33,473 nt of DNA, taken from contig CAIRSR010000091.1 of assembly GCA_903881315.1 (NCBI GenBank), positions 1-33,473 of the forward strand, read 5' to 3'. The notes under the pieces were generated by a model. That model saw only the letters and a list, made by a program, of their open reading frames with translations, did not search any database and had not been told where the DNA came from. Source of the stretch: an uncultured Thiotrichales bacterium (GTDB taxonomy: Bacteria; Pseudomonadota; Gammaproteobacteria; CAIRSR01). A program made the position numbers and the translations under genes. Below are positions 1 through 29,827 of the stretch, one piece after another (the first letter of the stretch is position 1; every line of letters starts with the position of its first letter).

Positions 1-3000
1 CTGCCCCCACGATAGTTGTCGGTGGTACCGGCACGGTCTCGGCAACCGGCGGGGCATCCGGGAACGCAGTAACCCTTACCTCGACGACAACCTCGGTCTG
101 TACCATCAGCGGCAGCACCGTCACTGGCGTCACTGCGGGCACCTGCACGATAGCCGCAAACCAAGCAAGCAGCACCAACTACAATGCCGCTACGCAAGTC
201 ACCCAGAACATCACCATTGGCCTCGGCAACCAGACCATCACCTTCGGCACCGCCCCGAGCGTAGTCGTCAACGGCAGCGGAACGGTCTCGGCAACCGGTG
301 GGGCATCGGGTAACGCCGTCACCTTCTCGGTTAACCCGGCGTCGGTCTCCGTCTGCAGTATCAGCGGGGCTACTGTTTCGGGCATCACCATTGGCAGTTG
401 TATCATCGACGCCAACCAGGCCGGTAACGCAAACTACAACGCCGCGAATCAGGCACAGCAAACCATCACCATCACAGGCCTAACCCAAACCATCAGTGCT
501 GTCGCCTTCGCCCCGAACACTATCATTGTAGGGAACACCACCACGGTCTCGGCCAACGGCGGAGGCTCAGGCAACCCGGTGACCTTCACGGTTGACCCTG
601 CCGCCACCACCGTCTGTAGCATCAGCGGCAGCACGATAACAGGCCTTACCGTTGGTAGCTGTATCATCGACGCGAACCAGACCGGCACCACCACCTATGC
701 CGCCGCGACCCAAGCACAGGCGACAATCACCGTCACTGGCCGCCCCCAGACCATCAGCGCCATCACCTTCACCCCGAGCACAGTCATCGCCAGCGGCACC
801 ACGACAGCCAGCGCAACCGGCGGGGCGTCGGGCAATCCGGTCACCTTCAGCTCCAACACAAGCTCGGTCTGTTCCGTGAACAGTAGCACTGGTGTGGTGA
901 CCATTTCGTCCACCGCTGCCGTAGGTAGTACCTGCACCATTGCCGCCAACCAAACCGGCAATTCCACCTATGCGGCTGCCACTACCGTAACCGGCAGTAT
1001 CGTCACCGTCCAGGCGATAACCATTACCGCAAACCCAAGCCCATCAACCTCCGGCACAATAAGCTGCACCAGTCCGGTCGCTACCGGCACTACCAGCACC
1101 TGTACGGTCACGCCCGGTTCCGGCAACTCCATCTCGAGCATCAGCGGCTGTAACGGCACCTCGTCGCGCACCTCCCCCTACACCACCGGTGCGGTCACGA
1201 GTAACTGTACGGTAACCGCAAGCTTCGGAACGTCTAAAACCGTCACGGCTACCGCAAGCCCTTCAGCAGGCGGCACAATTGTCTGTAGCCCGAGTACCGT
1301 CGCCTCCGGTACCACCAGCACATGTACCGTCGCGCCCAATTCCGGTTATGCCATCACCAACATCAGCGGCTGCAATGGCACAACAAGCAACATATCCCCC
1401 TACACCACCGGATCGATCACCAGCAACTGCACGGTAACCGCCACATTCGGCATCCTCATCACCACGACCGCAAGCCCGGCAGCGGGTGGCACAGTAACCT
1501 GTAGCCCTAATCCGGTCGCCTCTGGTAGCACCAGCTCCTGCACGGTCACGCCCAATACTGGCTACGCCATCTCCAGTTCTGGCGTTGCCATCAGCGGTTG
1601 CGGTGGCACCTCAACCAGCACCTCGCCCTACACCACCGGAACAATCACCAGCCCCTGCTCGGTAACCGCAAGTTTCTCGACCAGTTACACGCTCGCGGTC
1701 ACCACTGCCGGCACTGGTAGCGGCACCATCACCAGTAGCCCCGCTGGGATTAGTTGTGGCGCGACTTGCTCACACAGTTTTGCTAGCGGCACGTCAGTAA
1801 CCCTAACCGCCCAGGCAGCCTCGGGCAGCACATTCGCTGGTTGGAGCGGCGCTTGTTCAGGAACCAACAACGCTTGTTCCGTCACCATGAATTCCGCAAC
1901 GACCGTGGTCGCGAACTTTAGCCCCCCCACCAATTACACCATCACGGCCACTGCGAACCCTGCCGGATCCGGCACCGTGACCTGCGTCCCCGCTACGGTG
2001 GTCTCGGGCAGCACCAGCACCTGCACCGCGACACCCAATACTGGCTACGGTATCTCCAGCATCAGCGGTTGCAATGGCACCACGTCTACCACCTCACCCT
2101 ACACCACCGGCACAGTCACCGGTAACTGTACGGTAACCGCCAATTTCGCCTCGCTCACCGCGCTCACTATCACGAATGCGGGAACCGGTAGCGGCACGGT
2201 CACGAGCAGCCCAGCCGGCATCAACTGCGGGGCGACCTGTTCACAAAGCTTTACCCTCAACGCATCCGTCACCCTAACAGCCAGTGCAGCAACAGGCAGC
2301 TCGTTTGTTGGTTGGGGCGGCGCTTGTTCTGGCAGCAGCACTACGTGTACGGTCACAATGAGTTCCGCGCAAAACGTGACCGCGACCTTCAACCTCGGCG
2401 GCAACACGGTGACTGGCTCAGCAAGCGCAGGCGGCACCATCAGCCCGACCAGCGTTGTGGTAACGTACGGGAATACCCAGCAATTCACCCTAGCGGCAAA
2501 CACCGGCTACGCCATCGCTAGCGTTGGCGACAACTGCGGTAGTCAAGGCAGCTTGTCTGACAACACCTACACAACCGGACTCATCACCAGCGCCTGCACG
2601 GTGACCGCAAACTTCCTACAATCCCAAACCATCGGCACGGTTAGCTTCAACCAGACCCAGCTCGTCGCGGGCGGCACACCCGCCACAGCAACGGTCTCGG
2701 CCAGCGGCGGGGCATCGGGCAACACCGTTACCTTCACCAGCCTGACCACCGGCGTCTGCACCATAAGCGGCACCACCATTACCAGTGTCTCTGCGGGCAC
2801 CTGCACCATTGCGGCCAAACAGGCTGGCAACACAACCTACGCAGCAGCCCCCACGGCAACTGGCAGCATCACCGTTTTGCAGTCCCAGACCATCACCTTT
2901 GGCACAGCACCAACCCTGAACAATCGGGGTGCGGCAACCGTCAGTGCCAGCGCAAACTCAGGATTGTTGGTTGGCTTCTCAAGCACCACCACCAGCATCT

Positions 3001-6000
3001 GTAGTGTCGTTGACAATGGCAATGGCACCGCGACCGTCACCGGTGTCGCGGCTGGCACCTGCACCGTCAATGCCAATCAGTCAGGCAACAGCACCTACGC
3101 CGCCGCAACCCAGGTCTCGCCAAACTTCACCATAAACGCCACCACCGCCACCACCCAGACCATCACCTTTGTCGGCACCGCACCGACCCCGAATGTCGGG
3201 GGCAGCGGAACCGTCAGCGCCACGGCAAGCTCCGGATTGACGGTAAGCTATTCCCTAAGCACCACCGGCATTACCCTCGCAAACGCTACCTGCAGCATCG
3301 CTGACAATGGCAAGGGTAGTACGACGGTTACTGGTATCGCGGCGGGCACCTGCACCATCTACGCCAATCAGACGGGCAGTAGCACCTACCAACCCGTCCA
3401 GGCGTCACGGGCCGTCACGATTGGTAGCGCCACCGCTACTGCCCAAACCATCGGTGCCATCACCTTTGCCCCCAGCACCGTCACCGCCGGAGGAACCACC
3501 ACCGCGAGCGCTACCGCCACCTCGGGACTGGCCGTAACCTTCAGCTCGCTCACCCCGACCATCTGTTCTGTGAACAGCAGCAGCGGCGTTGTTACCGTCG
3601 TTGCCAACGCCCCGGAGGGCAACACCTGCACCGTTGCCGCCAATCAGGCGGGCAACGCGAGCTACGCAGTGGCCGCCCGGGTGACCAACAGCATTACGGT
3701 CGCAGGCAACACCCAAACCATTGGTGCTATCACCTTTACCCCAAACTCGCTCACAACCGGCGGCACCACAACCGTTAGCGCCACAGCAAGCTCAGGGTTG
3801 CCAGTCACCTTTACCGTCGATCCACTCTCGGTTGACTCACAAGGGCGCGTCGTCTGCACCATTAGCGGCACCACCGTGACTGGCCGCAATGCAGGTACCT
3901 GCTACATCGACGCCAACCAACCTGGCGGTTACAGCACCTATACCTACGCCGCCGCCAATCAGCAGCAGGGAACCGTCACGGTGACCAGCACCACCCAAAC
4001 CATCACCTTTGGCACAGCCCCAAGCCCGAGGATCAATGGCATCGGAACGGTCAGCGCCACGGCAAGTTCGGGATTGCCAGTAAGCTTCTCGTTAAGCAGC
4101 ACGAACAGCACCACCGCCAACAGCTACTGCAGCATTGTCGATAATGGCAATGGCACCGCGACCGTTACCGGTATCGCCGCTGGCACTTGCACGGTATACG
4201 CCACGCAAGCTGGCAACGGCGGCTATGCCCAGGCCCAGGCCTCACAAGCGGTCACGATTAGCAGCAGCACCGCCACCGCCCAAGCCATCAGCGCTATCGT
4301 TTTCAACCCAACCACCATCGCTGCAGGCGGAACCACCACAGTCAGCGCCACTGGCGGGGGTTCGGGCAACGGGGTTGTCTTCTCGAGTCTAACCCCAAGC
4401 CTCTGCACCGTAAGCGGCACCACCGTTACTGGCGTAGCGGCGGGCACCTGCACCGTTGCCGCCGACCAGAGCGGTAGCACCACCTACGCCCCAGCAACCG
4501 AGGTAACCAACAGCATCATTGTCCTCGCGCCCCAAACCATCACGTTTGGCCCCATCCCCACAGTAACCATCGGTGTAGCGCGCATCGTCAGCGCAAGCGC
4601 AAGCTCAGGACTCGCGGTGAGTTTCTCGCTGACGACTACGGGCACCACCCTCACAAACGCCTTCTGCCAAATCACGGATAGTGGCACCGGAATTGCCACA
4701 GTGACCGGTATAGCCGCGACTACCAGTGGCTGCACAATCTACGCCACCCAGGTTGGCAACAGCAGCTACGCCTCCGTACAGGCATCTTCGGCTATCACCA
4801 TCAGCGGGACATCAAGCCAAACCATCGCCTTCGGTACCGCACCAGTCATCACCGTTGGTGGCACCGGAACAGTCAGCGCCACCGCGAGTTCGGCGCTGGC
4901 GGTAACGCTAAGCTCAAGCACCCCATCCATCTGCACGGTAAGCGGCACTACCATAACCGGTGTGGCCGCAGGGACATGCAACATCACCGCGACCCAGCTT
5001 GGCAACGCGAGCTACGCAGGGACTACGGCAAACCAGAACCTTACCATCTACCCAGCAAGCCAGACCGTCACCCTCGGCACGGCCCCAACCGTCGCCGTCG
5101 GCAACACCGCAATGGCCAGCGCAACGGCCAGCTCTGGGCTCATGGTGAGCTTCTCGCTCAGCGCCACAAGCACCGTCCTTGCCAATACCTATTGCAGCAT
5201 CGTCGATAACGGCAATGGCACCGCTGCCGTAACCGGTTTGGCCGCGACCACCTCTGCCTCCTCTGGTTGCACCCTCTTCGCCAATCAGGTCGGCACCGCA
5301 AACTACACGGCCACCAGCAATTCCCAGCACATCAGCATCACCCAAACCACGCAGAGCGTCACCTGGAGCGCTGCGCCAATGGTCTCTATCAACCGATCTA
5401 ACCTGGTCAGCGCCACAGCAAGCTCGGGACTCACGGCAAGCTTCTCGACCACTACCACGACCATCTGCACCCTGGTCGACAATGGCAATGGCACCGCCAC
5501 AGTCACCGGTGTTGCCGCTGGCACCTGCACAATCACGGCAAGCCAAGCAGGTAACAGTAGCTATTCTGCTGCAACCGCGACCCTCACCCAGAGTCTCACG
5601 GTGACCGGCGCAACAACCCAGACTATCGGCACCATCACCTTCAGCCCAACCACCCTCACGGTGGGAGGCACCACAACCGCAAGCGCCACAGCGAGTTCAG
5701 GCTTAACCGCAACCTTCAGCTCGCTCACGCCTTCCATCTGTACTGTAGGGGCTAGTACCCTGAGCGCTGGGGTTTCTCGGGCGACAGTAACCGACGTCGG
5801 CGTTGGCACCTGCATCATTGCCGCCAATCAGGCAGGCAACACCACCTACGCCTTTGCAACCCAGGTAACCCAATCGATTGCGGTCACAACTGGCAGCACC
5901 ACCCAGACCCTGAGTGCAATCACCTTCACGCCAAGCGCACTCCTCGTCGGGGGCAACACCACAGTCAGTGCACGGGCAAGCTCAGGATTGATAGTGACGT

Positions 6001-6150
6001 TTAGCTCTACCACGCCGGCTACCTGCACCGTGAGTGGCAGCACGGTCTATGGCGTAGCAGCAGGCACCTGTAGCATTGTCGCGAGCCAAGCAGGCAACGC
6101 CATCTACGTGGGCGTCACTAGTACGACCACCATCAATGTTGGCATTAGCG
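1..6150 (+). repeat. Degenerate tandem coding repeats (Ig-like and InlB-B-like) of the PilY1 adhesin
   Basis: Two kinds of unit alternate in blocks. The first is about 80-95 residues and reads roughly QTI-x-F-x-P, TVSATASSGL, SxxxxSICxV, TVTGVAAGTCT, ANQxGNxxY. It occurs about 17 times, the first cut by the left edge, and nearly every copy keeps two Cys about 15-25 residues apart, suggesting one disulfide per domain. The second unit (1012-2620) is about 65-80 residues in seven copies. It has either SPYTTGxxTxxCTVTAxF or the CGATC, FxGWxGACSG, CTVTM pattern known from divergent InlB-B/bacterial repeats. Copies differ enough that they are not recent perfect duplications. Confidence 0.85.
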
Positions 6151-9100
6151 CGACCACCATCTCCGACGATTTTACCCAGGCCACCGATACCAACCTCTGG
6201 CAGCCATCGTATTACGCCTGTCTCACCGCCGGAACCTCGAGCAACAACTCGGTGCCAACCACGAGCAGCATCCCGGGTTGCAACTACACAACCCCCGATC
6301 AACCTGGTTTCGGCGCACTCCGGCTGACACCCGCAGCAACGAGTCAGCACGGTGCCATCGTATCCAATTACACCTTCCCCACCAACCAGGGCCTCCAGGT
6401 CACCTTTGTCAGCTACACCTGGGGCGGCGCAGGTAGCGGCGCTGGTAATGCAAACATGGGCGCTGACGGGATTTCGTTCTTCCTCATGGACGGTGCCGTT
6501 GGCACCACCTACTGGGGAACGCCGAACCTCGGCTCATGGGGCGGAAGCCTTGCGTATACCTGCTCGAATACGAACAATCCTTACACAGGCCTCACCGGCG
6601 CGTACTTAGGGCTCGGGATGGACGAGTGGGGTAACTTCCTGAACAGTGGCGACAATACCGCGAGCGGCGCTCCCGTAAACAGCACAAACACCTTTTACTC
6701 GGGGTCTTATTTCCAGGCCAATCGCATCGGTTTGCGCGGCGCGGGTAATGTAAGCTGGTATTGGTTGAATCAAAACTACCCAGCCCTCTACCCATCTAGC
6801 CTAAGTTCCGGCACCCAAGCAACCGCCGTCCAGAACACCTGTAAGACCGGCACCCTCTGGGATTACTCTACTGGCGTTGGCACGAACCTTAACATCACCG
6901 CGCAAAACGGTGGCCCAACGCTCTGGGATTATCCAGTAATCCAGAGCGGTTTCTCGGTGTTGCCAAACACTCAACCGATCGCCAAGCTGAGCGCGACCTC
7001 GCGCACCCAGGCAGTGCCGATGAAGTACCAGTTGTCGATCACGCCAGGTGGTCTGCTCAACTTCTCGTACAGCTACAACGGCGGCGGCTACCAGTCGGTA
7101 TTGACCAACTTCCCGATCACGGCAGGAAATGGCAACCTGCCCGACTCCTTCCGTTTCGGCTTCGCCGGCTCGACGGGTGGCGCTACGAATAACCACGAGA
7201 TCACCTGCTTCCTCGCGGAACCAACCGAATCGAGCAGTAGTGCGACGGTCAACAGCGTCGAGAGTGGTCAGGTACGCACCGGTACACAGGTCTATCTCGC
7301 CTCCTACAACCTAAACAGTTGGGCGGGGTCACTCGTATCTGACTCCATCACGGCGAATGCGAGTGGTGGGCTCAGTGTCGCCAAAATCTCTACCTGGGAC
7401 GGTAGCTGTACGCTGACCGGCGGGTCGTGCTCCAGCATGGGCACTGGCAGCAGTCCGGTCACCGTCGAGCCGTGGCAGGCGTCAACCGCAACCACCTCGA
7501 CCTCACCCATCCCGTCTCGCCAACTCGTGACCTGGAATGGCTCCAGAGGCGTGCCACTCGAATGGACAAATCTGACGGCGGCCCAGCAAAGCATCCTCAC
7601 CGCATCCAGCAGCGGCTCCCTCGGCCAAGATCGGCTCAACTGGTTGCGCGGCGACCGTAGCAATGAACAAACCTCCTTGCGCACCCGTTCTAGCGTCCTT
7701 GGGGATATTATTGACTCCAATCCAACCTGGATAGGCCCCCCCGCATTTGGTGGCACCCTCGCCACCCGGCTGAATGTCGTGTACGCCGGCAGCAATGACG
7801 GCTTCCTGCATGGCTTCAGGACTGGCCAAAACAATACGGACGGGAGTTACAACGCGACCTACAACGATGGCTACGAGGTGCTCGGGTTCATGCCCTATAG
7901 TGTGTTTACCAACAACAACCCGTCCCCCCTCCCCGCCGACGTTGTCAGCCTGACCCAACAACCCTATAACCATCAGTATTTTGTCGATGCCTCGCCCGGC
8001 AGCGGCGAGCTGTACTACACCGACAATACTGGTTCGCCAAACTGGCACACCTGGCTTGTGGGCGGGGTCGGGCCGGGCGGCCAGGAGATCTACGCGCTGG
8101 ATGTCACCGATCCCGCCACCTTCTCCGAGAGCAATGCGGCGAAACTCGTCATTGGCGACTGGACTCCCTCGACACTGACCACGCAGACCTGCATGAATGC
8201 GCTCACCAACTGTGGCAGTAATCTCGGCTACACCTACGGCACCCCACTGATTCGCCGCCTGCACAACGGTAGCTATGCGATAATCTTCGGCAACGGCTTC
8301 GATAGCAGCAGCGGGAAAGCGGGCGTATATATTGGTCTTATCAATGATCCTAGCTGCTCGGCTGCCTACACGAATACCAACGTCAACGTATGCGTAAAGT
8401 TTATCTGGCTAGACACCGGCACCGGTTCAGCCTCCGACCCGAACGGCATCGCCTACGTGTCGTCCGCTGACCTCGATAGCGACGGCCTAACCGACTACCT
8501 CTATGCGGGAGACCTGGAAGGAAACATCTGGCGTTTTGACCTCACGAGCACGGATCCGACACTGTGGGGGGCATCAACCTTTGGCCACACCTCAGCGGCA
8601 CCGCTGTTCACAGCAACAACGAATGCTGGCATCAGTGGAAGTGATGAACCCGTGTCCACCAAGATTGCCGTAACCGCAACCATCACCCCAGACGGGGCGC
8701 AGCGTGTACTCTTGGGAGTGGGTACCGGACGTGCGATACCGTTCACAGCAGCTACCGCCGAGATCTACGCCACCGGCACCCAGAGCGTCTACGGACTGTG
8801 GGATTGGGATATGGACGGGTGGAATAGCTCATCGGCCAATACCTTACGGGGCGTTGGCAACCTCCCTTACGCCTCTTTACCAGAGCAAGCGGCACCGTAT
8901 CGGACATTCACGCGCACCAGTCTTGCAACGGTCACGACCACCAACCCGACAACCACCACGCGGGCAGCAATTCCCGTCACGGTATGCTGGAATGGAAGTA
9001 CGTCGTGCGCCTCCGGCAACACGCAGTATGGGTGGATCTACGATTTGGCGTCTGGCAGTAACAATCTAGGGGAGCAGGTGATCTATAATCCCATCTTCTC

Positions 9101-9449
9101 CGGAGGAGAGTTGGTTGTGAACACCACCGTTCCTCCCTCGGCGAGTTCGATCAACCAATGTACACCTGCCTTACCAACCGGTTGGACGATAGCGTTCGAT
9201 ATGGCGTCCGGCGGTGCGCCACCAAACACGACGAACAACGTCTTCCCTGATTTCAATGGCAGCCTCGTCGCCAATGGCTCGCCGATCACGGGAACAGCGC
9301 TGAGTGCCGTCGGAACCCCGTACGTTGTTGCAATAGGCAGCAGCCAATACATCGTGAACCAAACCGTTAGCGGAACACCGGTGATTACCCAGTTCAACGC
9401 ACCGGGCGGCCTTACTGTTAAACTACTCTCATGGGGACAATTGCGGTGA
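1..9449 (+). CDS. pilY1: PilY1-type type IV pilus tip adhesin with Ig-like, InlB-B-like and lectin domains (5' end outside window)
   Basis: The reading frame is open from position 3 at the left edge to TGA at 9447-9449, so at least 3148 residues are visible and the start lies outside. Numbering from the first visible codon, the order is: about four Ig-like repeats (1-336), seven InlB-B-like repeats (337-872), thirteen more Ig-like repeats (873-2050), an L-type-lectin-like domain (about 2050-2405, with GADGISFFLMDG and GAYLGLGMDEWGNF), then the PilY1/PilC propeller (about 2415 to the end). Propeller landmarks are LNWLRGD, RSSVLGDIIDSNP, VVYAGSNDGFLHGF and GGVGPGGQEIYALDV, plus a calcium-loop motif DLDSDGLTD at 8469-8495. 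PilY1 proteins sit at the type IV pilus tip and act in adhesion and pilus dynamics. The following pilE supports the call. Most PilY1 proteins are 1000-1400 residues, so this one is exceptionally long. The C-terminal assignment is firm; what the repeats and lectin bind is unknown. Confidence 0.93.
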   Translation, partial: APTIVVGGTGTVSATGGASGNAVTLTSTTTSVCTISGSTVTGVTAGTCTIAANQASSTNYNAATQVTQNITIGLGNQTITFGTAPSVVVNGSGTVSATGGASGNAVTFSVNPASVSVCSISGATVSGITIGSCIIDANQAGNANYNAANQAQQTITITGLTQTISAVAFAPNTIIVGNTTTVSANGGGSGNPVTFTVDPAATTVCSISGSTITGLTVGSCIIDANQTGTTTYAAATQAQATITVTGRPQTISAITFTPSTVIASGTTTASATGGASGNPVTFSSNTSSVCSVNSSTGVVTISSTAAVGSTCTIAANQTGNSTYAAATTVTGSIVTVQAITITANPSPSTSGTISCTSPVATGTTSTCTVTPGSGNSISSISGCNGTSSRTSPYTTGAVTSNCTVTASFGTSKTVTATASPSAGGTIVCSPSTVASGTTSTCTVAPNSGYAITNISGCNGTTSNISPYTTGSITSNCTVTATFGILITTTASPAAGGTVTCSPNPVASGSTSSCTVTPNTGYAISSSGVAISGCGGTSTSTSPYTTGTITSPCSVTASFSTSYTLAVTTAGTGSGTITSSPAGISCGATCSHSFASGTSVTLTAQAASGSTFAGWSGACSGTNNACSVTMNSATTVVANFSPPTNYTITATANPAGSGTVTCVPATVVSGSTSTCTATPNTGYGISSISGCNGTTSTTSPYTTGTVTGNCTVTANFASLTALTITNAGTGSGTVTSSPAGINCGATCSQSFTLNASVTLTASAATGSSFVGWGGACSGSSTTCTVTMSSAQNVTATFNLGGNTVTGSASAGGTISPTSVVVTYGNTQQFTLAANTGYAIASVGDNCGSQGSLSDNTYTTGLITSACTVTANFLQSQTIGTVSFNQTQLVAGGTPATATVSASGGASGNTVTFTSLTTGVCTISGTTITSVSAGTCTIAAKQAGNTTYAAAPTATGSITVLQSQTITFGTAPTLNNRGAATVSASANSGLLVGFSSTTTSICSVVDNGNGTATVTGVAAGTCTVNANQSGNSTYAAATQVSPNFTINATTATTQTITFVGTAPTPNVGGSGTVSATASSGLTVSYSLSTTGITLANATCSIADNGKGSTTVTGIAAGTCTIYANQTGSSTYQPVQASRAVTIGSATATAQTIGAITFAPSTVTAGGTTTASATATSGLAVTFSSLTPTICSVNSSSGVVTVVANAPEGNTCTVAANQAGNASYAVAARVTNSITVAGNTQTIGAITFTPNSLTTGGTTTVSATASSGLPVTFTVDPLSVDSQGRVVCTISGTTVTGRNAGTCYIDANQPGGYSTYTYAAANQQQGTVTVTSTTQTITFGTAPSPRINGIGTVSATASSGLPVSFSLSSTNSTTANSYCSIVDNGNGTATVTGIAAGTCTVYATQAGNGGYAQAQASQAVTISSSTATAQAISAIVFNPTTIAAGGTTTVSATGGGSGNGVVFSSLTPSLCTVSGTTVTGVAAGTCTVAADQSGSTTYAPATEVTNSIIVLAPQTITFGPIPTVTIGVARIVSASASSGLAVSFSLTTTGTTLTNAFCQITDSGTGIATVTGIAATTSGCTIYATQVGNSSYASVQASSAITISGTSSQTIAFGTAPVITVGGTGTVSATASSALAVTLSSSTPSICTVSGTTITGVAAGTCNITATQLGNASYAGTTANQNLTIYPASQTVTLGTAPTVAVGNTAMASATASSGLMVSFSLSATSTVLANTYCSIVDNGNGTAAVTGLAATTSASSGCTLFANQVGTANYTATSNSQHISITQTTQSVTWSAAPMVSINRSNLVSATASSGLTASFSTTTTTICTLVDNGNGTATVTGVAAGTCTITASQAGNSSYSAATATLTQSLTVTGATTQTIGTITFSPTTLTVGGTTTASATASSGLTATFSSLTPSICTVGASTLSAGVSRATVTDVGVGTCIIAANQAGNTTYAFATQVTQSIAVTTGSTTQTLSAITFTPSALLVGGNTTVSARASSGLIVTFSSTTPATCTVSGSTVYGVAAGTCSIVASQAGNAIYVGVTSTTTINVGISATTISDDFTQATDTNLWQPSYYACLTAGTSSNNSVPTTSSIPGCNYTTPDQPGFGALRLTPAATSQHGAIVSNYTFPTNQGLQVTFVSYTWGGAGSGAGNANMGADGISFFLMDGAVGTTYWGTPNLGSWGGSLAYTCSNTNNPYTGLTGAYLGLGMDEWGNFLNSGDNTASGAPVNSTNTFYSGSYFQANRIGLRGAGNVSWYWLNQNYPALYPSSLSSGTQATAVQNTCKTGTLWDYSTGVGTNLNITAQNGGPTLWDYPVIQSGFSVLPNTQPIAKLSATSRTQAVPMKYQLSITPGGLLNFSYSYNGGGYQSVLTNFPITAGNGNLPDSFRFGFAGSTGGATNNHEITCFLAEPTESSSSATVNSVESGQVRTGTQVYLASYNLNSWAGSLVSDSITANASGGLSVAKISTWDGSCTLTGGSCSSMGTGSSPVTVEPWQASTATTSTSPIPSRQLVTWNGSRGVPLEWTNLTAAQQSILTASSSGSLGQDRLNWLRGDRSNEQTSLRTRSSVLGDIIDSNPTWIGPPAFGGTLATRLNVVYAGSNDGFLHGFRTGQNNTDGSYNATYNDGYEVLGFMPYSVFTNNNPSPLPADVVSLTQQPYNHQYFVDASPGSGELYYTDNTGSPNWHTWLVGGVGPGGQEIYALDVTDPATFSESNAAKLVIGDWTPSTLTTQTCMNALTNCGSNLGYTYGTPLIRRLHNGSYAIIFGNGFDSSSGKAGVYIGLINDPSCSAAYTNTNVNVCVKFIWLDTGTGSASDPNGIAYVSSADLDSDGLTDYLYAGDLEGNIWRFDLTSTDPTLWGASTFGHTSAAPLFTATTNAGISGSDEPVSTKIAVTATITPDGAQRVLLGVGTGRAIPFTAATAEIYATGTQSVYGLWDWDMDGWNSSSANTLRGVGNLPYASLPEQAAPYRTFTRTSLATVTTTNPTTTTRAAIPVTVCWNGSTSCASGNTQYGWIYDLASGSNNLGEQVIYNPIFSGGELVVNTTVPPSASSINQCTPALPTGWTIAFDMASGGAPPNTTNNVFPDFNGSLVANGSPITGTALSAVGTPYVVAIGSSQYIVNQTVSGTPVITQFNAPGGLTVKLLSWGQLR

Positions 9450-9952
9450 TTACATCCAGAACGAAAGGTTTTACCCTTATCGAGCTAATGATCGTCGTTT
9501 CGATCATTGCGATACTCGTTGTTGTCGCCTTTCCAAGCTACCAATCGTACGTGCTGAAATCGCACCGAACGGCAGCCATCAACGCGCTTTTGTATATCGC
9601 CGGACAGGAGGCAAACTATTACAATGCAAACAACGTCTATGCCACCAGCATTGCGGGGCTAGGTCTTGGCTATACCGATCCCTACACCGTCCCGTCGGCC
9701 AGCACCACCTACTACAAGGTCGCGGTGCAAGCTGGTTCTACCAGTAGCGCCTTCACTCTACAGGCAGTACCGCAGGGCGCTCAGACCAGCGACACTTGTG
9801 GCACCTACGCCTACACCAATCTCGGCGTTAAAATGCTCTACTCCGGGACTAGCGTGACCTATTCCAACACCGGCGCAGGAAACCAGGGCTCTGTCCCAGG
9901 AGGCACCGTAACCACCAGCGGCACAACGCTGTCTACTTGTTGGGGGAATTAG
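9446..9952 (+). CDS. pilE: Type IV major pilin-like protein (PilE/PilA family)
   Basis: This is a type IVa pilin with a short basic leader and the prepilin peptidase site KG|FTLIELMIVVSIIAILVVVAFPSY. Glu at mature position 5 and the hydrophobic N-terminal helix are both intact. Two Cys near the C-terminus (SDTCGTY and STCWGN) fit the pilin disulfide loop. Length is about 168 residues, normal for PilE. I prefer the GTG at 9446, which overlaps the pilY1 stop as GTGA, has GGGGA about 8 bases upstream, and gives the usual 8-residue leader MITSRTKG. The ATG at 9431 would add five residues but has no visible Shine-Dalgarno. A pilE directly after pilY1 is the common minor-pilin cluster order. It could be a minor pilin rather than the main subunit. 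Confidence 0.92.
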   Translation: MITSRTKGFTLIELMIVVSIIAILVVVAFPSYQSYVLKSHRTAAINALLYIAGQEANYYNANNVYATSIAGLGLGYTDPYTVPSASTTYYKVAVQAGSTSSAFTLQAVPQGAQTSDTCGTYAYTNLGVKMLYSGTSVTYSNTGAGNQGSVPGGTVTTSGTTLSTCWGN

Positions 9953-14861: not shown

Positions 14862-15377
14862 TTACTTAGACGTGGTAGCAGGAGCAGCCACGGGAGGAGC
14901 AGCCACAGGAGCGGCTGGAGGATAACCGTACGCCGGGCCACCCCAAGCAGGAGCATAGCCATAGCCGGGAGGAGGATAGCCATAGCCGTTGTAGCCGTTG
15001 CCCCAGCCGTTGCCATTGCCGTAGCCGTAGCCGTTGCCATAGCCATTGCCGTAACCGTTACCATAGCCATTGCCATTGCCATTGCCATAGCCATTGCCGT
15101 AGCCGTTGCCATAGCCATTGCCATGAGCATTGCCACTGAAGCCGAAGCTCATGCCACCGCTGCCACCGCCGTCACCGAGCCAGTCGCCGCCGCCGCCGTT
15201 GCCCCAGTTACCACCGTTGCCCCAGTTGCCACCGTTGCCCCAGTTGCCATTGTTGCCCCAGTTGCCACCGTTACCATTACCCCAACCCGGACCCCACCAA
15301 GCATTGGCGGATACGGAAACAAGACTGCTCACGCCCAACAGGGCGGCAATTGCTACTGACCGAGTCAGCTTCTTCAT
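14862..15377 (-). CDS. Putative sulfur globule envelope protein (SgpA/SgpB-like)
   Basis: The protein has 171 residues. Residues 1-26 form a Sec signal peptide (MKKLTRSV, a hydrophobic core, SANA) with likely cleavage before WWGPGWGN. The mature part is almost only Gly, Asn, Tyr, Trp and Pro: four NWGNGG repeats (about residues 39-62), a GGMSFGFSGNAHG linker, GNGY/GNGN repeats (about 86-119), then a Pro/Ala/Tyr-rich tail. Sulfur globule proteins of purple sulfur bacteria share this build: a signal peptide, high Gly/Asn/aromatic content, and an FSGNA-type segment before GNGYG repeats. They coat sulfur deposited in the periplasm during sulfide or thiosulfate oxidation. GGGAGA lies 6 bases before the ATG. 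A generic glycine-rich cell-surface protein is the alternative. The carbon-fixation genes nearby favour the sulfur reading. Confidence 0.75.
   Translation of the reverse strand: MKKLTRSVAIAALLGVSSLVSVSANAWWGPGWGNGNGGNWGNNGNWGNGGNWGNGGNWGNGGGGDWLGDGGGSGGMSFGFSGNAHGNGYGNGYGNGYGNGNGNGYGNGYGNGYGNGYGYGNGNGWGNGYNGYGYPPPGYGYAPAWGGPAYGYPPAAPVAAPPVAAPATTSK
15021..15122 (-). repeat. In-frame 6/12-nt microsatellite coding for GN/GNGY repeats
   Basis: On the plus strand the pattern is repeated GTTGCC/ATTGCC and GTAGCC/ATAGCC hexamers, which read on the minus strand as alternating Gly-Asn and Gly-Tyr codon pairs. The period is 6 or 12 bases, so gain or loss of units keeps the frame. Third-base differences between copies show the array has diverged rather than being freshly copied. 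Confidence 0.8.
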
Positions 15378-23964: not shown

Positions 23965-24072
23965 GGGAGCCGCAGACATAGGAACTCCCTCCTTACCCAA
24001 CATCAGCAAAGCCAGCCCTTCCTCGCCCTAATAATCGTCATCTCCTCTGATTCACATTCCACACTCACCAAT

Positions 24073-26769
24073 CTAATACTCTCCCAAACTCTTCACAGCA
24101 ATCTCATTGGTGTCGTTGGATAACACAGCGCCACGCAGTATCCCTTCTAATGCCTGACGCATCCCGTCACGCCGAACTGATTCATACCGCCGCCAATCGC
24201 TGAGGGCCTTGATAAGGCGTGACGCGACCTGGGGATTAAGCGGATCGATGGCAAGCACCTGCTCGGCGAGAAAGACATATCCCACACCACTCGGGTCATG
24301 AAAATTACTCGGGTTGCTATAGCAAAAGGCACCGATGGTCGCATAGACCTTATTCGGGTTGGTAATCCGAAAGTCGGGGTGGTTGAGTAGACCCTTCACC
24401 GTCTCTAGGGTGCCTGGCAGCCGTGAGGTCGCCTGCAGCGAAAACCACTTATCCAACACAATGGGGTAATGCCGCCAGCGATTGTAGAAATCCGCCAAAG
24501 CCGCTTCACGCTCAACACAATCCGCGTTGACCAGAAACCCAAGCGCTGCCATCGCATCGGTCATATTGGTAGCGGTTTGGAATTGCGTTACGCAAAGGGC
24601 GCGCACCTCATCGTCCGCAAGCTCCATCAAATAACCAAGACAGGCATTCTTGAGGCGTCGCTGCCCAATAGCGCGAGCGTCGTCTGGCTTAACGCCGTTC
24701 GCATTCTCTTGGTACAGCGCGAGAAACGCACTACGCAACACTTGTGCCAAGGATGTTCGTAGGAAACGACGGACGAGGTGGATTGCCGCCGGATCGATTG
24801 GCGCAACATGCTCCGACAGGTAGGCCTCTGAGGGAATAGCCAGCGCCTCGGCCAAGAAACGCGGATCGCGTATTCCCACCCCCACCGAAGATGCACCACT
24901 CGCCTCTTCGAGAAGACGGCCAAACGCACGCACCAACAACGGCGAGACAACGAGCGAACGACCCGCTGCATGATCAGCCAACAACCCTTTGATCAAACGC
25001 AACGCAAGCTGCTGCCCTGCCTCCCACCGGTTGAAGAGATCCCCATCCTCCGCCATCAGGAACGCGAGATCATCATCCGAATGCTCAACATCAAGATACA
25101 CCGGCGCAGAAAATCCCCGCAACAACGACGGCACCGGCGGAGAAGAGACCCCCACAAACTGAAAGACCTCACGCGCTTCCCGCAATTCCAGCACCCGCGT
25201 ACCCAATCCTTCTGGAGAATCTCCGCAAGCCAGACGGGCAGCGACACCAGGCGTCGGGTCAGTCGCTAGGCGTAGCGGCAGTTCCTTACCCGCACTATCC
25301 AGCAAACCCACCGCAAGGGGGATGTGGAAGGGTTCTTTGATCGGCTGCGTGGGCGTTGGCGGACAGCTCTGCTCAACGGTTAGGGTATAGGTCTCTGTGG
25401 GTGCATCATAATTGCCACGACAGCGAATGGTCGGTGTACCCGCCTGGGTATACCAACGCCGGAATTGACTTAAGTCTCGCTCCGAGGCGTCTTCAAGCGC
25501 CCGCACGAAATCATCGGTCGTGACAGCCTCGCCATCGTGGCGGGAAAAATAAAGATCTGTGCCACGACGAAAGTCCTCGGGTTGCAGCAGATTGCACGCC
25601 ATGCGCACAACCTCCGCGCCCTTCTCATAGACCGTCACGGTATAAAAGTTACTGATCTCCATGTACGAATCTGGCCGCACCGGATGCGCCAGCGGGCCCG
25701 CGTCCTCACGAAACTGGGCGGTGCGCAACCGCAGCACATCCTTGATCCGCTTCACCGGACGCGAGGTCATGTCGGCGGTGAATTCCTGGTCGCGAAAAAC
25801 AGTAAATCCCTCTTTTAGGGAAAGCTGAAACCAATCGCGACAGGTGACCCGATTGCCCGACCAGTTGTGGAAGTATTCGTGCGCAATGATAGCCTCGATG
25901 GCCTCATAGTCCTCATCGGTTGCCGTCTCTGGTTGCGCCAACACATAACGCGAGTTAAAGATATTGAGGCCCTTGTTCTCCATCGCGCCCATATTGAAAT
26001 CATCTACCGCCACAACCTGGTACACATCCAGGTCATACTCGCGACCATAGACCTCTTCATCCCAGCGCATCGCCTTTTTGATGGAGGCCATGGCGTGGGC
26101 GCACTGCCCCTGGTTCTGGTGTTGCACGTAGATATGCAGGGCTACCTCTCGCCCCGAAGAGGTGCGGTAGGTGTCGCTCACCCGTGCCAGAGATCCCGCC
26201 ACCAAGGCAAAGAGATACGACGGCTTGGGGAAGGGATCCACCCAGCGGGCATAATGACGCCCATCGGGGAGTTCCCCCACCTCTGCCGGATTACCGTTGG
26301 AGAGCAGCACAGGATAACGCACCCGATCCGCCCTGAGGGTGGTCGTGAACGGTGCCATGACATCAGGACGATCGAGGTAATAGGTGATCCGCCGAAACCC
26401 CTCTGCCTCGCATTGGGTGCAGAGGTTCCCACCAGAGGCATAGAGCCCCTCAAGGGCCGTGTTCTCTTTGGGGCACACCTCGGTTGTCACCTCAAGGGTG
26501 AACGCCTGCGGCACTTGATGGATCGTCAGGGACTCTGGTGCCACCAGATATTCATCGGCGTTCAGCTCGCGCCCGTCCAAGGCGAGACGGTGGAGTCTCA
26601 GCCCTTGGCCATCCAGTACCAAGGGCAATGGCTCGGTAGCGGCACGCCGCAGACGGATGCACGAGCGAACCACGGTCGCGCCGTCGTCTAGGTCGAAGGC
26701 GAGATCCAGCGCATCAACGACATAGACGGGCGGGGTGTAATCACGTAGGTAGGTAGTTTTTCGGTTCAT
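24073..26769 (-). CDS. pepN: Aminopeptidase N (M1 family)
   Basis: This zinc metallopeptidase removes N-terminal residues from peptides in the cytoplasm. From the ATG at 26769 it has 898 residues, against 870 in E. coli PepN. The exopeptidase motif MGAMENKGLNIFNSRY lies near residue 261, and the zinc site HEYFHNW with the distant Glu of LKEGFTVFRDQEF begins near 295. Both positions match E. coli PepN closely. The N-terminal KTTYLRDYTPP is typical. The ATG overlaps the stop of the upstream CYTH-CHAD gene as ATGA, so a TTG two codons earlier is less likely. No clear terminator is seen in 23965-24072. Confidence 0.96.
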   Translation of the reverse strand: MNRKTTYLRDYTPPVYVVDALDLAFDLDDGATVVRSCIRLRRAATEPLPLVLDGQGLRLHRLALDGRELNADEYLVAPESLTIHQVPQAFTLEVTTEVCPKENTALEGLYASGGNLCTQCEAEGFRRITYYLDRPDVMAPFTTTLRADRVRYPVLLSNGNPAEVGELPDGRHYARWVDPFPKPSYLFALVAGSLARVSDTYRTSSGREVALHIYVQHQNQGQCAHAMASIKKAMRWDEEVYGREYDLDVYQVVAVDDFNMGAMENKGLNIFNSRYVLAQPETATDEDYEAIEAIIAHEYFHNWSGNRVTCRDWFQLSLKEGFTVFRDQEFTADMTSRPVKRIKDVLRLRTAQFREDAGPLAHPVRPDSYMEISNFYTVTVYEKGAEVVRMACNLLQPEDFRRGTDLYFSRHDGEAVTTDDFVRALEDASERDLSQFRRWYTQAGTPTIRCRGNYDAPTETYTLTVEQSCPPTPTQPIKEPFHIPLAVGLLDSAGKELPLRLATDPTPGVAARLACGDSPEGLGTRVLELREAREVFQFVGVSSPPVPSLLRGFSAPVYLDVEHSDDDLAFLMAEDGDLFNRWEAGQQLALRLIKGLLADHAAGRSLVVSPLLVRAFGRLLEEASGASSVGVGIRDPRFLAEALAIPSEAYLSEHVAPIDPAAIHLVRRFLRTSLAQVLRSAFLALYQENANGVKPDDARAIGQRRLKNACLGYLMELADDEVRALCVTQFQTATNMTDAMAALGFLVNADCVEREAALADFYNRWRHYPIVLDKWFSLQATSRLPGTLETVKGLLNHPDFRITNPNKVYATIGAFCYSNPSNFHDPSGVGYVFLAEQVLAIDPLNPQVASRLIKALSDWRRYESVRRDGMRQALEGILRGAVLSNDTNEIAVKSLGEY

Positions 26770-28873: not shown

Positions 28874-29827
28874 CTACCGCTCCCGCTTGCGCTCCACCAA
28901 CTCTTGGATGCGGGGCGCACAGATGATCTCCAGCGCCTGCCGGAGGGCATCACCCGGGATCACGATGGTGTTGAGTCGAGACATAAACGAGTTGTGGATA
29001 CGGGAGAGCAGGTTCGGGAAATCGAACCGCTTTGGCTCCCGGAAGCGCACCACGATGACACTCTCGTTTGGCGTCGGCACATCCGAGGCGCTAAAGGGGT
29101 TCGAGGTATCCACCGTAGGAACCCGCTGGAAATTGATGTCGGTAAGGGAAAACTGCGGCACAATGTAGCGCAGATAATCCGGCATGTGGCGCAGAATGGC
29201 GGCCACTACCGCTTCCTCGCTAGCACCTTTGAACCTTACGTCGTTATGGATCTTTTGGATCCATTCTAGGTTGACGATTGGCACCACCCCGATCAGGAGA
29301 TCCACCCAGCGCGCCACGTCTACCCCGGCATCCGCCCGCGATTCTAGATTCATGCGCTCGCGGATAACCCGTGGGTTGTGCGACGGCCCCATTGAGCGCC
29401 GACTCCAAGAGGCCTCGATACAGCCACCATGCAGGCCCTCGTAGAATAATAGATCCGACTCAAGCGGGATCTCGCGCCAGGGGCTAAAGGTTCCCCGAGG
29501 GGCCTGCAGACGTTTTGCCATCTCGTCATCCTGCAGGTAATCCCGCACGAGACCGGTACCCGTGCGCGAGTATTCCCGGAACAGTCCCTCGAGACGATCG
29601 AAGAGGTTCGCTTCGGGGCCAAAGTGACTGATAGGCTGCCCAGTTACCCGGGACTCTGCACTTTTTTGTCTCATCGTAACGCGGTCATAACGACGGAAGG
29701 CGTTGCCCTCCACGTAGACCGCATTGATCCCGACTCGCCGAAAGATCTCTTGGAACGCGCACTTAACCGTTGTAGTACCCGCTCCGGAGGAACCGGTCAC
29801 CGCGACAATGGGATGTTTAATTGACAT
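28874..29827 (-). CDS. prk: Divergent phosphoribulokinase homologue
   Basis: Class I (proteobacterial) phosphoribulokinase phosphorylates ribulose-5-phosphate to ribulose-1,5-bisphosphate for Rubisco. The protein has 317 residues against about 290 in the family. Family features are the P-loop VTGSSGAGTTTV (residues 10-21), SHFGPEANLF, LLFYEGLHG (Glu130), VVPIVNLEWIQKIHND, DINFQRVPTVDTSNPF and SFMSRLNTIVIPG. Two active-site positions differ. The usual EGDAFHR is EGNAFRR here, so residue 42 is Asn instead of the catalytic Asp, and 45 is Arg instead of the His that contacts the sugar phosphate. About 28 extra residues rich in Arg and Ser (roughly 139-168) sit before VDLLIGVVP. GAGG lies 7 bases before the ATG. 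It may be a paralogue with altered or lost kinase activity. Confidence 0.9.
   Translation of the reverse strand: MSIKHPIVAVTGSSGAGTTTVKCAFQEIFRRVGINAVYVEGNAFRRYDRVTMRQKSAESRVTGQPISHFGPEANLFDRLEGLFREYSRTGTGLVRDYLQDDEMAKRLQAPRGTFSPWREIPLESDLLFYEGLHGGCIEASWSRRSMGPSHNPRVIRERMNLESRADAGVDVARWVDLLIGVVPIVNLEWIQKIHNDVRFKGASEEAVVAAILRHMPDYLRYIVPQFSLTDINFQRVPTVDTSNPFSASDVPTPNESVIVVRFREPKRFDFPNLLSRIHNSFMSRLNTIVIPGDALRQALEIICAPRIQELVERKRER

Follow-up and report, generated by a model that had tools for sequence, protein, structure and literature searches.

The phosphoribulokinase-like locus

The window, i.e., the whole stretch of 33,473 nucleotides analysed here, is a contig of an uncultured Thiotrichales bacterium. 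Translation of its minus strand gives an uninterrupted open reading frame of 317 amino acids at 28874-29827, and the encoded protein contains the motifs ...YVEGNAFRRYDR..., P-loop GSSGAGTTT, YEGLHGG, and EWIQKIHND. The gene stands alone between a downstream DUF2939 gene that converges on it and an upstream NAD(P)HX epimerase/dehydratase gene in divergent orientation, and no convincing promoter or terminator pattern was found around it. Its features are given below; catalytic residues are numbered as in the Rhodobacter sphaeroides enzyme, and insert residues and Cys303 as in the window protein.

28874..29827, minus strand: phosphoribulokinase (PRK) paralogue, 317 amino acids plus stop (P0001), assigned by family profiles, with 1a7j as best solved relative by sequence and by fold
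29768..29794, minus strand: P-loop GSSGAGTTT, residues 12-20, kept (translation) and conserved in the clade
29702..29704, minus strand: Asn42 in place of the catalytic-base Asp42 (translation, 1a7j alignment); Asp in 71/71 canonical PRKs and 14/28 clade members
29693..29695, minus strand: Arg45 in place of the ribulose-5-phosphate-binding His45 (translation, 1a7j alignment); His in 71/71 canonical PRKs and 0/28 clade members
29531..29533, minus strand: Gln99 in place of R. sphaeroides His100 (1a7j alignment); His in 71/71 canonical PRKs and 3/28 clade members
29324..29407, minus strand: insert, residues ~141-168 (WSRRSMGPSHNPRVIRERMNLESRADAG), with a predicted helix at 152-161; absent from canonical PRKs
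29228..29245, minus strand: residues 195-200, NDVRFK, with Arg168 replaced by Asn and Arg173 by Lys, and the catalytic Asp169 kept as Asp196 (translation, census)
28919..28921, minus strand: Cys303, newly invariant in the clade (28/28); Leu, Phe, or Ile in canonical PRKs

An earlier note on this DNA had recognized a PRK homologue in the reading frame, and the family profiles agree: the protein matches NCBIfam NF011997 (420 bits, above the equivalog cut-off of 362) and Pfam PF00485 over its full length. The closest solved structure by sequence is the class I PRK of R. sphaeroides (CbbP, 1a7j; E 1e-87), to which the protein is homologous from end to end, with an alignment gap exactly at the extra segment. 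An AlphaFold model (pLDDT 87, pTM 0.86) has the PRK fold, and its top Foldseek match is again 1a7j (E 1.6e-33, TM-score 0.93 by target length, 46% identity). Within the class I PRKs, the octameric family of proteobacteria, the window gene is a second, non-canonical copy that goes back to an old duplication or transfer. Uridine-cytidine kinases, d-glycerate 3-kinase, and pantothenate kinase were also retrieved by Foldseek; they are far more distant than 1a7j (10-17% identity) and have the P-loop kinase fold in common with the window protein, so this fold changes its acceptor in evolution. Another PRK-fold lineage, named cyanobacteria-specific PRK and set apart by its depositors (9qko, 9qkp, 9qkn), differs from the window protein (~20% identity, TM ~0.6) and belongs to a different clade; no literature on these three entries was found.

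Active-site residues and the insert

In common with 1a7j, the window protein has the P-loop, Glu131, His134, Lys165, Asp169, Arg31, Arg234, and Arg257. It differs in six substitutions (Asp42 to Asn, His45 to Arg, His100 to Gln, Arg168 to Asn, Arg173 to Lys, and Arg187 to His), in a 28-residue insert after the Glu131-His134 loop, and in the new invariant Cys303. Asn42 and Arg45, the two of the six that the earlier note had pointed out, indeed fall on Asp42 and His45, as EGNAFRRYDR occupies the position of R. sphaeroides Asp42-Arg49. Because both residues recur in independent genomes of the same genus (G001, 83% identical) and the same family (G002, 79%), a sequencing error is ruled out, and because none of 71 standard PRKs lacks Asp42 or His45, so is chance. 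Mutation of Asp42 in the R. sphaeroides enzyme nearly abolishes its activity.

In R. sphaeroides PRK, His45 and Lys165 bind ribulose-5-phosphate and Arg168 binds ATP (PMC5241800). Of the contacts to ribulose-5-phosphate (His45, Arg49, His100, and Arg173, with roles taken in part from PMC5241800), only Arg49 is retained in the window protein. For Chlamydomonas PRK, the Asp57/His105 dyad has been described as the pair that acts as catalytic base (PMC9978339); we equate it with R. sphaeroides Asp42/His100 through the Tyr-x-His motif, and both residues of this putative equivalent are altered here. The alignments indicate that most contacts to ribulose-5-phosphate are gone from the paralogue, as is, in the lineage of the window, the whole of the proposed Asp-His catalytic dyad. 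We infer that in this organism the paralogue would not be an effective ribulose-5-phosphate kinase. The nucleotide/Mg half of the active site is kept, together with Arg31, Arg234, and Arg257, which we take to be the allosteric-site arginines. The earlier statement that ATP binding looks intact is mostly right, as the P-loop, Glu131, Lys165, and Asp169 are all present, but not entirely, because Arg168, described as ATP-binding (PMC5241800), is replaced by Asn.

The inserted segment of about 28 residues that had been noted corresponds to residues ~141-168, which have no counterpart in 1a7j. This basic, conserved segment directly follows the Glu131-His134 loop and is the least certain part of the AlphaFold model (confidence 52-66). 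Trp141, Arg144, and Gly168 are found in all 28 clade members, Arg158 in 27, and His150 and Pro152 in 26.

A census of the 28 clade members against 71 standard PRKs separates what was given up from what was retained. Asp42, His45, Arg49, His100, Arg168, and Arg173 are present in 71/71 standard PRKs. In the clade, position 42 is Asp (14/28), Asn (8), Glu (3), or Ser (3), and position 45 is never His but Arg (17), Leu (10), or Tyr (1); Arg49 is retained in 18/28, His100 in 3/28, Arg168 in 17/28, and Arg173 in 3/28. Well kept are Asp169 (28/28), His134 (27/28), Glu131 (26/28), Lys165 (25/28), and the arginines 31, 234, and 257 (26, 23, and 27 of 28, respectively), and Cys303 is newly conserved in every member. 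Among the 107 invariant sites of standard PRKs, losses affect 7/10 acceptor and lid sites (chosen in part from PMC5241800) versus 15/97 others (Fisher p 5e-4). Where Glu131 is altered, Lys (YKGLHGG) or Asp (YDGMHGG) takes its place (L036, 10001-10978; L040, 10001-10963), a hint that some members may have lost metal binding as well.

By the NG86 method, dN/dS is ~0.12 for the close pair G087/G221 and ~0.04 for the window/G001 pair, where dS is saturated. In the same genomes, dN is 0.109 for the paralogue and 0.049 for the canonical copy, a roughly twofold difference in rate. Judged from the dN/dS ratios, purifying selection maintains the paralogue in autotrophs equipped with a standard PRK as well.

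A standard PRK in the same genome

A whole-genome search revealed a canonical PRK of 290 residues on contig 28 of the same assembly (G000, bases 23998-24867). Unlike the window paralogue, with which it shares 53-58% identity across the two halves, it reads EGDSFHRYDR and KIHRDTAERG and has no insert, and it is likely the Calvin-cycle enzyme of the organism. The earlier note had proposed that a second prk with an EGDAFHR-like motif be sought, and EGDSFHR is the canonical form of that motif. The Rubisco large subunit is encoded on contig 151, which is neither the window contig nor the contig of the canonical prk. Since contig 28 carries the canonical copy, the window gene is not the sole prk of an apparent autotroph, one of two findings that would have overturned the proposal of a paralogue distinct from the working CO2-fixation kinase. 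The other, that motifs of the EGNAFRR type are common, does not hold either, as they occur in 0/71 standard PRKs. With the insert bearers forming a single clade as well, that proposal stands: on the evidence of its sequence, the window gene is a paralogue and not the working CO2-fixation kinase.

A clade of insert-bearing paralogues

The paralogue is part of a clade with at least 29 members, which is defined by the insert and by invariant Trp141, Arg144, Gly168, and Cys303, all of which the window protein has. A search of relatives yielded copies in the same genus (83%) and family (79%) and also in more distant families, and an alignment-based scan of a named genome collection added further insert-bearing copies in metagenome-assembled genomes (MAGs) labelled Thiotrichales, Acidiferrobacterales, Sulfuriflexus, Gammaproteobacteria, and Burkholderiales. 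Among 369 genomes of the class, a PRK-type match was found in 203 and an insert-bearing copy in 18; a search of 398 genomes of the phylum added one more such copy, which lies in a complete genome that also belongs to this class. In the same-family genome G003, the paralogue was not found, so it is dispensable even within the family. A plasmid origin was considered and rejected, as the best plasmid matches are below 60% identity. No description of an insert-bearing PRK paralogue was found in the open-licence literature.

A maximum-likelihood tree was calculated for 56 proteins after positions 42 and 45 and the columns of the insert had been taken out (a quick search, no bootstrap, unrooted); all 28 insert-bearing proteins lie on one side of a branch with an SH-aLRT of 99. 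The earlier note had proposed to see whether homologues sharing EGNAFRR and the insertion form a clade; those with the insert do, but Asn42 is not their signature: position 42 changes at least eight times on the tree among D, N, E, and S, and Asn42 was dropped as a hallmark because the residue varies. The constant features of the clade are the insert and the loss of His45. Separate from it, L011 (G056) and L135 (G205) form a divergent PRK-like group on a very long branch, in which EGDS(F/Y)HK is retained but the C-terminal half is altered and lacks the MSR motif.

A canonical PRK is also present in 27 of the 29 distinct host genomes, including five single-contig genomes that are 99-100% complete. 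Rubisco was found in 26 of the 28 distinct hosts tested (two handles being taken as one genome, by our own reading), including every host that is ≥90% complete and ≤5% contaminated, and many hosts have two Rubisco large-subunit genes. The hosts without a canonical PRK, G297 and G330, were set aside as evidence for a Calvin-independent role, both assemblies being incomplete (72% and 79%, respectively). Contig 1 of G297 (L126, L153, L154, L164) is a single-contig assembly of 2.5 Mb that carries the paralogue and in which canonical PRK and Rubisco were not found; should this assembly prove to be complete, it would point to a function beyond the Calvin cycle.

Gene neighbourhood

It had been noted that the gene is not beside Rubisco or the tkt-fba genes. 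This is correct insofar as Rubisco lies on another contig and other genes intervene, but the tkt-gap-pgk-pyk-fba cluster is located ~6.3 kb away on the same contig and strand. Over ~25 loci, no neighbour is common beyond close relatives save a few housekeeping blocks, and no conserved neighbour or operon joins the paralogue to prk or cbb genes; the context therefore names neither a substrate nor a partner. A conserved operon partner was rejected on the grounds that neighbourhoods vary between families, with the genes read there being mostly housekeeping, and PAS/GGDEF sensory neighbours, hinted at in three loci, did not recur as a pattern over the ~25. A similar housekeeping neighbourhood is found in a MAG labelled Burkholderiales (L077) and in Sulfuriflexus (L042/L157/L158), comprising SpoT, Gmk, and HemW-like genes and a Ser/Thr kinase with a PP2C phosphatase (identified by reading the sequences); this may reflect a shared ancestral location, a transfer, or a mislabelled MAG.

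Elsewhere in the window, a secreted 171-aa protein with a signal peptide (14862-15377, minus strand) is extremely rich in Gly, Asn, and Tyr and gives the impression of a sulfur-globule protein of sulfur oxidisers. A 2956-aa repeat-rich protein with a PilY1-like C-terminal part (579-9449, plus strand), directly followed by a type IV pilin-like gene (9431-9952, plus strand), is a candidate giant, repeat-extended tip adhesin of the PilY1 type.

Possible functions of the paralogue

Although databases would label it phosphoribulokinase, the paralogue probably does another job. It is likely that the Calvin-cycle reaction has been abandoned, in favour of either a nucleotide-sensing pseudo-kinase subunit that gates PRK or a Calvin-tied kinase for another sugar phosphate. 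We tentatively favour, at somewhat less than even confidence, a regulatory partner of the canonical PRK octamer, one that binds nucleotides and has weak or no catalytic activity, or an ATP/NADH sensor in its own right. By this reading, the acceptor pocket would be remodelled or covered by the insert, and the paralogue might assemble with the canonical octamer and thereby tune the Calvin cycle, or alternatively achieve this by sensing ATP/NADH alone. This is consistent with the single origin of the clade, its purifying selection, the near-strict co-occurrence with canonical PRK and Rubisco, the whole-length similarity to the octameric 1a7j, and the concentration of losses at acceptor and lid sites while the P-loop, Lys165, Asp169, Glu131, and Arg31/234/257 are mostly kept. 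The variability of residue 42 would be odd for an essential base. A signalling role of PRK is documented in R. sphaeroides, where it is an intermediate in the nitrogenase-induced repression of cbb genes (PMC4806589). On the other side stand the retention of Asp42 in half of the clade and the lack of a conserved neighbour or operon with prk or cbb genes over ~25 loci. Moreover, the invariant Asp169 and the near-invariant P-loop and Lys165 fit an active kinase equally well or better, and the invariant residues of the insert could form a new substrate site.

The latter points suit a neofunctionalised kinase, a slightly less probable reading that is a serious contender, in which the ATP phosphate is transferred to another phosphorylated sugar or sugar acid. 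Arg144, His150, and Arg158 of the insert would make a new acceptor site together with Arg45 and Lys200, and in members lacking Asp42 the role of catalytic base would pass to another residue (e.g., Asp196 or His150). Purifying selection, the confident kinase fold (AlphaFold, Foldseek), the adjacency of the new invariant insert residues to the active-site loop, and the settling of position 45 on Arg or Leu without drift all speak for it. However, the occurrence of D, N, E, or S at position 42 is difficult to reconcile with a single conserved phosphotransfer, except if the base lies elsewhere, and no metabolic neighbour points to a substrate. A genuine ribulose-5-phosphate kinase isozyme of altered affinity or regulation, by analogy with the two Rubisco forms in some hosts, seems unlikely. 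The co-occurrence with Rubisco and canonical PRK, the two Rubisco large-subunit genes in many hosts, the conservation of Asp169, Lys165, Glu131, and His134, and the carbon-fixation redundancy described for two Acidiferrobacteraceae (PMC5024460) would fit such an isozyme, but His45 is lost in 28/28 members and His100 and Arg173 in 25/28 each, all being invariant in the canonical enzymes; Asp42 is also Asn in the lineage of the window, and no Rubisco genes lie close to the copy. That the gene is a functionless duplicate in decay is very improbable: catalytic residues are lost and the distribution is patchy, as in G003, but nearly all reading frames are intact with low dN/dS, new invariant residues extend across 28 sequences, and the gene is conserved over many families of the class. 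Between the regulatory partner and the kinase for a new acceptor, the balance is nearly even. We lean to the regulatory partner because of the variation at residue 42 and the near-strict co-occurrence with canonical PRK, and the new-acceptor kinase stays close because Asp169 is invariant and the insert residues are conserved.

Implications

PRK produces the substrate of Rubisco in the Calvin cycle and counts as one of the two diagnostic enzymes of that pathway; a paralogue of this kind can mislead autotrophy calls as well as arguments based on copy number. Because it passes the NCBIfam equivalog cut-off, annotation pipelines would label it phosphoribulokinase. A conserved paralogue in which the nucleotide and allosteric sites persist but the sugar-phosphate site is lost would give chemolithoautotrophs either a new level of regulation or a new reaction of sugar phosphates.
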